Source: an uncultured Prochlorococcus sp.
GTDB taxonomy: Bacteria; Cyanobacteriota; Cyanobacteriia; PCC-6307; Cyanobiaceae
Direction: 5' to 3'
Length of the DNA stretch: 64,000 nucleotides
NCBI GenBank assembly: GCA_902620895.1
Contig: CACNJU010000006.1
Span: forward strand, 1 to 64,000
Shown here: piece by piece, positions 20,287 through 48,486 of the stretch
Numbering within the stretch: position 1 is the first letter of the stretch
Layout of the letters: every line of letters begins with the position of its first letter
Notes under the pieces: model-generated
What the model was told of the DNA's origin: nothing
What the model saw: the letters and a program-made list of their open reading frames with translations, nothing else
The model's database searches: none
Position numbers and translations under genes: made by a program

Positions 20287-20313
20287 CTTGTCATTTGGTT
20301 ATCTTTATTTGAA

Positions 20314-20372
20314 CGGAGGGGGTGGGATTCGAACCCACGGTACCCTTGCAGATACGCTAGTTTTCAAGACTA
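20314..20372 (-). repeat. partial tRNA-Ser(UGA) 3'-half duplication (att-like)
   Basis: 59 bp identical to 21331-21389 except 2 mismatches; identity ends just past the anticodon loop. Confidence 0.9.
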
Positions 20373-20420
20373 TAAGATATTAAGTGATAGCAGTTGATTA
20401 GATAGCATCTAAGGAACAAA

Positions 20421-20445
20421 TATGACCGAAATATACCCGTTTTTT
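20421..20445 (+). repeat. left copy of TATGACCGAAATATnnCCGTTTTT
   Basis: TATGACCGAAATATACCCGTTTTTT; matches 21197-21220 with 2 mismatches. Confidence 0.7.
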
Positions 20446-20506
20446 GAAGAGATTAATTTAATAAATATCAACAGGATTTTGCAAGTAGTTAGCGTTTCAT
20501 TTAATT

Positions 20507-21103
20507 TTAGATGTTATCTGTTGAAGACTCGTTATATTCAGACACACATTCATTTATATTTAAAAACTCATAATTCAAAGATATGTATCCCTCTTCACTA
20601 CTAGTTGCGATTGCGTTAACTGATATGTTTTTAATATTATTTTGAGGAAGATTAGAGCCAATTTCTTTATTCCAAAAAGCTGTAAGGTATCTTTCTTCTT
20701 TTAATAATCCCATCATCCAATATTTAGCATCATTCCAAATACTGTCTCTTTTAACAAAATCATATTTTTCATTGTCACCATATTTTTTTGTTAATGCTTT
20801 TTCAAAAAATTCATATTCGCTTTTGAGTTGATCTCCAAAGGAATTTGAATACATAATATCTGAATGGCTCAATATCCTACAAAGTCCTGACTTTGGGGTT
20901 ATTAATAAATCATATTTAGTTAATTTAGAGTTGCCTTTTGGAAGCTCTTCTGTCGTATACCAATAATTCCCATCATCTTTGAGAGAAACACCCTTATTAG
21001 ATATATCTTTCTTTGTCTCACCCATATTTAAACCAAATTGGCTTGATAATAGATATTGAGGAAAAATAAAAATAGAAATTATTATTGTTAGAAAAAACTT
21101 CAA
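20507..21103 (-). CDS. secreted hypothetical protein, cargo of tRNA-Ser element
   Basis: N-terminal signal peptide MKFFLTIIISIFIFPQYLLSS; FGLNMGETKKDI. Confidence 0.65.
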   Translation of the reverse strand: MKFFLTIIISIFIFPQYLLSSQFGLNMGETKKDISNKGVSLKDDGNYWYTTEELPKGNSKLTKYDLLITPKSGLCRILSHSDIMYSNSFGDQLKSEYEFFEKALTKKYGDNEKYDFVKRDSIWNDAKYWMMGLLKEERYLTAFWNKEIGSNLPQNNIKNISVNAIATSSEEGYISLNYEFLNINECVSEYNESSTDNI

Positions 21104-21168
21104 TTTAAAAAGAGCTAATTGCCCTTTATTGTAGATCGATTGTCAAAAATTTAAATACTCTATTCTGA

Positions 21169-21220
21169 TATGACCGCTTATGACCGTTTTAAATATTATG
21201 ACCGAAATATGACCGTTTTT
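21169..21220 (+). repeat. cluster of four ATGACCG repeats at right end of element
   Basis: ATGACCG at 21170, 21180, 21198, 21209. Confidence 0.75.
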
Positions 21221-21280
21221 GTTCTCCAATATACGGTAACAGAGGGGAATTCTAAGGAACTAATCTATTTTCAAGAAAAT

Positions 21281-21303
21281 AAAAAAAACTCCTAGAAGGA
21301 GTT
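21281..21303 (-). terminator. terminator of tRNA-Ser transcript (AACTCC-TAGAA-GGAGTT, then Ts on minus)
   Basis: Perfect 6-bp stem with A-tract on plus strand. Confidence 0.65.
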
Positions 21304-21331
21304 GTACTTTTAAAAGTCAGTCGTGGATTAC

Positions 21332-21417
21332 GGAGGGGGTGGGATTCGAACCCACGGTGCCCTTGCAGACACGCTAGTTTTCAAGACTAGAGCCTTAAAC
21401 CACTCGACCACCCCTCC
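21332..21417 (-). tRNA. tRNA-Ser(UGA)
   Basis: GGAGGGGTGGTCGAGTGGTTTAAGGCTCTAGTCTTGAAAACTAG...GGTTCGAATCCCACCCCCTCC; class II with variable arm, anticodon TGA. Confidence 0.97.
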
Positions 21418-21629
21418 AAAGGGTTCTTCAGTTTTATTGAACTTAAAAACTATAACATAAGAAATTAGTCACAGTCTATAAATTCAAAGATTTAAAAATT
21501 ATTTCAAGAAACTAGTTTGAGATAGGAATTTTTATTAATAATGATGAGTTAAATCGTTATAACAACCTCTTCTTAGTCAAATTTAGTCAACAAAATGAGT
21601 CCAAAAAATCTAGTCTGCTTCCAAAAAAA

Positions 21630-22014: not shown

Positions 22015-22110
22015 TTTTTTAGCTCCGGTTTCGCTTAAGTCCCCGTTCCATGGCTTAAGTCGATTTGCGGCTTGCTATACGCAAGTTGAACGCTTTGGTA
22101 GCGGTTGCTA
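22015..22110 (-). promoter_or_regulatory. GC-rich structured 5' leader of DUF4278-like gene with 10-codon uORF
   Basis: Hairpin CTTGC-GTATA-GCAAG, two GACTTAAGC repeats, uORF MERGLKRNRS (22019-22051) ending 4 nt before the CDS start. Confidence 0.5.
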
Positions 22111-37760: not shown

Positions 37761-38978
37761 ATGTCATTAACTCAATCAAAAGAGGTTAATAGTCTCTCCA
37801 AAAGATATTCAACTCATATCGAGAGAAGGATAACTAGAACGGTAATGGTGGGCGATGTAGCTATTGGAAGTGATTATCCAGTAAGAGTTCAATCGATGAT
37901 AAATGAAGATACGATGGATGTAGAAAATGCTTACTTAGCTATCAAAAGACTTCATGATGTGGGTTGTGAAATAGTAAGATTAACAGTCCCTTCCGTAGCA
38001 CACGCAAAAGCAGTAGGAGATATAAAAGCAAAATTATTAGAAAATAATATCAACACCCCCTTGGTAGCTGATGTTCACCATAATGGTATGAAAATAGCAA
38101 TGGAGGTTGCAAAACATGTTGATAAAGTAAGAATTAATCCAGGATTATTTGTGTTTGAAAAATCAGACCCTACAAGAACTGAATATACAGATGAGGAATT
38201 TGAAACTATTAAACAAACAATACTTAAAAGATTTACCCCTTTGGTTGAAGTTTTAAAGGCTGAAAACAAAGCTCTAAGGATTGGAGTTAATCATGGTTCT
38301 TTATCTGAGAGGATGCTTTTTACTTATGGAGATACGCCATTAGGAATGACAGAATCTGCGATGGAGTTCGTTAAAATTTGTGATGAGCTTGATTTTCATA
38401 ACATAATTATTTCTATGAAAGCTTCTAGGGCTCCGGTCATGATGGCAGCTTACAGAATGATTGCAGATAGGCTTGACTCAGAAGGATTTAACTATCCCTT
38501 ACATTTGGGAGTGACCGAAGCTGGTGATGGTGATTATGGAAGAATTAAAAGTACTGCTGGAATTGGAACGCTTTTAGCAGAGGGATTAGGAGATACCATC
38601 AGGGTTTCCTTAACAGAAGCTCCAGAAAAGGAAATACCAGTGTGCTATTCAATTTTGCAATCTTTAGGATTAAGAAAAACAATGGTTGAATATATCAGTT
38701 GCCCTAGTTGTGGTAGAACACTTTTCAATCTAGAAGAAGTTGTAGATAAAGTTAGGAACGCCACTTCACATTTAACGGGTCTAGATATAGCAATAATGGG
38801 ATGTATTGTTAATGGGCCAGGAGAAATGGCAGATGCTGATTATGGTTATGTTGGGAAAGGTAAAGGAACTATTGCCTTATATAGAAGGAAAGAAGAGATA
38901 AAAAGAGTACCTGAAGATGAGGGGGTTAATGCTTTAATCCAACTTATTAAGGATGATGGGAAGTGGATTGATCCTTAA
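37761..38978 (+). CDS. ispG: (E)-4-hydroxy-3-methylbut-2-enyl-diphosphate synthase
   Basis: [52 protein letters not shown]. Confidence 0.97.
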
Positions 38979-47737: not shown

Positions 47738-48486
47738 TAACGTTTTATTGCCACTTGCCAATAAGGATAATCTAAATTTGATTTTTCTCTAAGTAATTGT
47801 AATTTTCTAGAATTTATTTTTACTACTATTCCATCTGTTGGATATTTACTAAAAAGTTTCCCCTCTAGCCATTGTTTTCTAAATACTTCAACTTGGCTCG
47901 TAAAGTTGCATGAAATATCCTGAGGGATCGTGAAGCCAAGCTTTGAAAGACTTTTTTTGGATTCATATTGGTTAAGTGTTGAATTAAGTATTTGAAATGC
48001 GCAGAAGCTAAGACTTTCAGAAAATCCTTCTTTAGCTCTTAGAAATCCAGAAGCGATTCTTTGGGAGATATTTGGACTTTGGTTGGGTGCATATAATTCA
48101 CCTCTAACTTGAAGAACTCCCCGTAAAGGCAGACTATTGGGAATGTCTTGAACTTTAATAAGTTTACTAGTAACGTCTGCCCCTTTTCTTGAAATTGCTT
48201 TCTCCAAGGTTCCATCCCTATATTGCAAAGCAACAGCACAACCATCAATTTTTGGTTCAATTAATAATCTGGTATCTACTAATAGTCCTTTCAAAAATTC
48301 ATCTATTGAATCCTTTTCTAATGAAGGTAAAACTAGTTTATTTTTCTTTTTAAAGTAATCACAATTTGGGTTTGTTCTTAATAAATTTTTTTCAAGTTGG
48401 TCGAACTGCTTATCAGAGATTAAAGCATTACCATTTCTATAATTATCGTCATACCATTCAATTCGTTCTTCTAAATAAGTCTTCAT
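47737..48486 (-). CDS. single-domain NAD-dependent DNA ligase-like nucleotidyltransferase
   Basis: LLIEPKIDGCAVALQYRDGTL (KxDG), VRGELYAP, DGIVVKIN, YPYWQVAIK; no OB/Zn/HhH/BRCT regions. Confidence 0.85.
   Translation of the reverse strand: MKTYLEERIEWYDDNYRNGNALISDKQFDQLEKNLLRTNPNCDYFKKKNKLVLPSLEKDSIDEFLKGLLVDTRLLIEPKIDGCAVALQYRDGTLEKAISRKGADVTSKLIKVQDIPNSLPLRGVLQVRGELYAPNQSPNISQRIASGFLRAKEGFSESLSFCAFQILNSTLNQYESKKSLSKLGFTIPQDISCNFTSQVEVFRKQWLEGKLFSKYPTDGIVVKINSRKLQLLREKSNLDYPYWQVAIKR

Follow-up and report, generated by a model that had tools for sequence, protein, structure and literature searches.

Why should a 1-kb stretch of DNA next to a tRNA gene carry the same short word, at regular spacings, near both of its ends? 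The question is raised by a tRNA-Ser locus of an uncultured Prochlorococcus sp., analyzed here within a 64,000-nucleotide stretch of one contig (hereafter, the window). Few photosynthetic organisms are as abundant as Prochlorococcus, whose tRNA-bordered islands host much of its gene exchange. Judging from the layout of the locus and of its relatives, the TGACCG words are very probably arm-type sites of a non-autonomous, single-gene tRNA-Ser element moved in trans by a helper integrase.

The island comprises 1,017 bp between a displaced 60-bp copy of the tRNA-Ser(TGA) 3' end, i.e., the left attachment-site repeat (20313–20372, plus strand; 97% identical to 21330–21389), and the intact tRNA-Ser(TGA) (21330–21418, minus strand), whose 3' end is the attachment site. 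An empty site exists in a relative, G019, where the left flank and repeat of the window align without interruption to the flank and intact tRNA. Because the G019 left flank runs directly into the intact tRNA, the 1,017 bp represent an insertion at the tRNA 3' end. Thus, the locus has the direct repeat of a tRNA 3' end, the restored intact tRNA, and the empty site in a relative that define tRNA-gene integrative elements. A further defining feature, an encoded integrase, was not found within the island, which keeps its att sites and lacks recombination genes, as do CIMEs and other non-autonomous elements.

The one sizeable open reading frame (ORF) between the repeats, taken from the ORF list and family scans, encodes a 198-aa cargo protein with a TTG start and a hydrophobic N-terminus (20507–21103, minus strand). 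It belongs to no known family, having no match in Pfam or NCBIfam and a single weak match in PHROG (E = 0.012), and the cargo DNA is matched at 91% over 915 bp in G246/AG-459-O09. The strand of the tRNA also has a terminator-like hairpin plus T run supplied by the element (21287–21303, minus strand; single-sequence fold). Related right arms have such a hairpin too, with stems that vary; RNAalifold detected no hairpin shared across the tRNA-proximal arm sequences, though single sequences have the terminator. Elsewhere in the window are a Glutamine-II riboswitch (22034–22095, minus strand; Rfam RF01704, 66.7 bits) and a gene for a 249-aa protein consisting only of an NAD-dependent DNA ligase adenylation domain (47740–48486, minus strand; PF01653, E = 3.5e-19).

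On the plus strand of the window, exact copies of ATGACCG start at 20422, 21170, 21180, 21198, and 21209; together with one degenerate word on the left, they give two words in the left arm and four in the right. Left word 1 (20422–20428) lies 50 bp inside the repeat, as in other elements, and is followed at a distance of 11 bp by left word 2, ATACCCG (20433–20439), a variant also present in G246, G101, and G074. The right cluster, with spacings of 10, 18, and 11 bp, consists of an outer pair of exact words 10 bp apart (21170–21186) and an inner pair 11 bp apart (21198–21215), the latter followed by a T run and located 132 bp from the tRNA. The 24-mers at 20421–20444 and 21197–21220 are 92% identical, with a spacing of 776. 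The only other ATGACCG in the window is at 38434 on the minus strand, and the total of six copies compares with 1.48 expected, a count reached in none of 100 shuffles. The preliminary description had reported these words, their positions, and their spacings, all of which proved exact upon re-reading the sequence, save that the left motif amounts to one perfect and one degenerate word. Its remark that coding sequence does not explain them also holds: the right cluster is intergenic, and the left ATGACCG overlaps only a 60-aa ORF that starts in the motif and runs antiparallel to the cargo ORF. Another repeated word, TCTAAGGAAC, is present in both arms of the island (20408–20417 and 21251–21260, both on the plus strand) and recurs in the left and right arms of related elements; it is possibly an accessory-protein site.

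Related islands are widespread in the genus, where the tRNA-Ser 3' end often has a second copy 0.6–9 kb away (131 genomes). Most tRNA-Ser islands carry paired words ~11 bp apart, with one pair at ~50 bp from the left repeat, on its inner side, and the other at ~132 bp from the tRNA, and this paired-word layout was seen in dozens of them genus-wide. A right-arm profile based on 13 islands found 59 copies in 52 of 266 genomes of the genus; 57 of the 59 run into a tRNA-Ser 3' end, a proportion that is partly by construction since the profile includes 12 nt of the tRNA. In a family-level sample of 400 genomes, all matches fell within the genus except a weak one (E = 5e-4). The four-word right cluster with its 10/18/11 spacings is kept in AG-459-O09 and AG-905-G05; of the two right pairs, the inner is the better conserved across related islands. 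Such named Prochlorococcus records, together with homology, are the basis for assigning the window to the genus. The same tRNA also borders a 9.25-kb island with the same kind of repeats (L134, G107 C2:378783–388121), encoding proteins named by eye as a 987-aa ABC transporter, a 337-aa membrane-fusion-like protein, and a 635-aa putative secreted protein. Moreover, tRNA-Ser is used from its 5' side (L175:10385–18816 and L178:3328–11180) by elements bordered by repeats of the 5' half (nt ~45–89), with their own end-matched words (TTCGGAAC and GTTTCCGA) and ~200-aa integrases.

The word itself differs between elements. Classes among the islands include TGACC, TTCACC, TACCC, TAACC, TTGACC, TGAGCC, TGTGCC, and TCTGCCAAC, and elements with matching words hold them at about +50 and −132. 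The best ungapped match between left and right ends averaged 15.1 within elements against 10.27 ± 0.46 after permutation, with none of 20,000 permutations as high, in a set of 39 two-ended elements (38 distinct; 36 rows for tRNA-Ser and three for tRNA-Pro) and with a statistic that leaves shared ancestry uncorrected. Ancestry alone, however, would not be expected to turn the words at both ends into one and the same new word. A word-level concordance test is biased, the left words having been chosen partly by their match, and the left–right matching rests on the permutation test. Where elements are stacked on one chromosome, neighbors differ in their words, and each element has its word matched between its left and right ends: for instance, three stacked elements at tRNA-Pro in G105 carry GATCGCCC, AGCGCTCC, and CTTTCGCTC, and two at tRNA-Ser in AG-905-G05 carry TGACCG and TAACCG. 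The match is broken in some elements, including L234:6871, L137, L134, and L138, of which L137 and L134 are long; such elements could be fused neighbors. L234:6871–8213, where left words TTCACC face right words TACCC, may have arisen by fusion of two elements in a stack.

The layout extends to elements that encode an integrase. A de novo detector of 8-bp words with a 10–13-bp period, repeated at two places >600 bp apart, found element-specific word pairs in about two-thirds of 33 integrase-region loci, a few of which overlap, and none in Markov-shuffled loci. The pairs usually bracket the integrase, with the tRNA-side pair, as in the window island, mostly 114–144 bp from the tRNA where tRNA and integrase share a contig; the integrase loci that gave no match are mostly those with no detected tRNA. 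Run on the window, the detector reported no pairs, neither outside the island, a negative control, nor at the island itself, whose degenerate left pair its strict criteria exclude. The same layout, with a word peculiar to the element, was seen in most of the integrase-bearing elements examined at tRNA genes for Ser, Pro, and Asn.

One word, CCCAAACACA, is common to an autonomous and a non-autonomous element. At the same tRNA-Ser, G050 has an element of 6.1 kb with a gene for a 429-aa integrase (L175:5755–7044), and the six copies of CCCAAACACA in a 20-kb stretch lie only at the element ends, two left and four right, as in the window. G104 has a 1.23-kb element with CCCAAACACA, the same layout, and no detected integrase, which resembles the G050 element only at the ends, over 106 bp (94%) and 221 bp (90%). 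A CCCAAACACA pair occurs in seven of the 266 genomes, in six of them at two places 0.6–5.9 kb apart. A search of PDB sequences with the G050 integrase gave no matches; its predicted structure (mean pLDDT 84, pTM 0.53) has an N-terminal domain of a beta-sheet plus helix at residues 17–87, and the best fold match is full-length lambda Int (1z1b). In lambda-type integrases, the C-terminal part binds the core and the N-terminal domain binds the arm-type sites (PMC2951348, PMC8138268).

Taken with the word layout and matching, the occurrence of CCCAAACACA in elements with and without an integrase means that the window island is best read as non-autonomous and single-cargo. Repeated words in both arms at a fixed distance from the core are what characterize arm-type sites, and the island has them, so that the arm-type reading of the words appears well supported. 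An N-terminal domain of a lambda-type tyrosine integrase would bind the TGACCG words, two in the left arm and four in the right, with the tRNA-Ser(TGA) 3' end serving as the core site. Given that the island is without an integrase, any recombinase must act in trans, and we infer protein binding, excision, and trans action from the arrangement of the sequence: a helper that recognizes this arm word would carry out both excision and integration of the island, and the arm word would work as an address label, with each element family having its own word, matched at both ends. The preliminary description had likened the words to integrase arm-type sites and named element-encoded recombinases as candidates for binding them; the former gains support from the layout of integrase-bearing elements, whereas the island encodes no such enzyme. 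It had also anticipated equivalents beside related tRNA-bordered islands and no genome-wide scatter. Equivalent paired words do stand at both ends of such islands, and ATGACCG pairs within 30 bp of each other occur only at the island in the 1.50-Mb draft genome (zero for the backwards control); what recurs genus-wide is the paired-word layout and not TGACCG itself, since each element has its own word.

The search for the helper covered the genus and the host genome. A parent integrase-bearing element was seen for the CCCAAACACA word, and no integrase accompanied by a TGACCG-class word was found in the 266 genomes of the genus. The draft of the host genome (G000) is 89.6% complete, and its sole PF00589 match above the search threshold is a 389-aa tyrosine recombinase beside a cobO-like gene (L291:176–1342, contig C4). 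No excision circle or attP junction was seen. One scan of viral contigs for the TGACCG cluster gave 88 three-copy matches, and further scans for the cluster or the right-arm/tRNA junction returned 0, 0, and 0. Phage-record matches were set aside: those among the matches listed lie on the phages' own tRNA-Ser genes.

Other explanations differ in what they ask of these data. Chance repeats in AT-rich DNA have next to no probability: single 7-mers do arise randomly, about 1.5 per window, but the genome-wide pair search and the integrase-locus detector speak against this origin, and the shuffle and permutation controls refute it. It is quite unlikely that the words are sites for a transcription factor or an excisionase rather than integrase arms. 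The right cluster is upstream of the cargo gene, and some excisionases bind repeated sites next to the core; a cargo promoter, however, has no need of a matching site at the left end, and the fixed two-ended distances, ~11-bp pairs, end matching, and occurrence in integrase-bearing elements fit integrase arms better.

Two further alternatives accept arm sites and differ over what, if anything, reads them. In one, the island is a decayed, microCIME-like remnant, now fixed after deletion of its integrase, with fossil arm sites and any movement in cis with a neighbor. This is possible, although we doubt it: tandem stacking of islands is common, G246 has the cargo of the window in an element that lacks its left end, and such a fate is described for CIMEs (PMC7563491, PMC3146451), yet dozens of ~1-kb units with diverse cargo retain both ends and words, and plain decay would not maintain concerted word change at the two ends. 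In the other, the helper is the 389-aa recombinase of the host, running an integron-like cassette system. The protein matches both PF00589 and PHROG integrases, is the only recombinase above threshold in G000, and is near-universal in the genus, with a similar map position in complete genomes. Against this, words that vary and match by element point to several enzymes more readily than to a single one, Pfam and NCBIfam detect no arm-binding domain in the protein, and no link between its gene and the islands was seen, all of which makes a host helper unlikely.

Islands at tRNA genes are already known, as are arm-type sites and CIMEs, att-flanked islands that lack an integrase. In lambda, ICEMlSym of R7A (P1–P5; five arm sites in a 283-bp attP, PMC11963761), and KplE1, too, a tRNA-end core is flanked on either side by several short direct words at set distances; here, in contrast, the element that bears the words has no integrase, and one tRNA hosts many different words, each specific to an element. 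CIMEs, microCIMEs, and the Dehalococcoides ssrA islands are att-flanked, without recombination genes, and often in tandem beside a tRNA or tmRNA (PMC7563491, PMC3146451), much like the window island. Unlike CIMEs, the units described here hold one or two genes in ~1 kb, have matched arm words and no conjugative relative that was seen, and are proposed to move in trans, not in cis. MITEs and CALIN cassettes are short, hold recognition ends only, and are moved by the enzyme of another element (PMC11389934), which is the non-autonomous, ends-only condition proposed for the island; the enzyme class is different, and the ends are direct words plus a tRNA repeat, not terminal inverted repeats or attC. 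Tycheposons (Hackl et al. 2023, Cell), also tRNA-anchored in Prochlorococcus, are tyrosine-recombinase elements, described in a citing paper as cargo elements of 4–200 kb at seven tRNA genes (PMC10872708); by that description, an island of 1.0 kb without a recombinase falls outside them. In the literature searched, a set apart from Hackl et al. 2023, no account was found of a genus-wide set of ~1-kb units, each with one gene and an arm word of its own that matches between the ends.

For the genus, a broader and distinctly tentative picture is that of cassette-like exchange at tRNA-Ser, in which about one-fifth of genomes would carry one or more ~1-kb single-gene units whose words various integrases, perhaps among them a host-resident core recombinase, would read in trans, and in which units would stack, swap, and fuse at one site. 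If arm words do label pairs of integrases and islands, the sequence of a cargo-only island would suffice to assign it a helper, and one-gene mobile units, now a hidden pool, could be counted.
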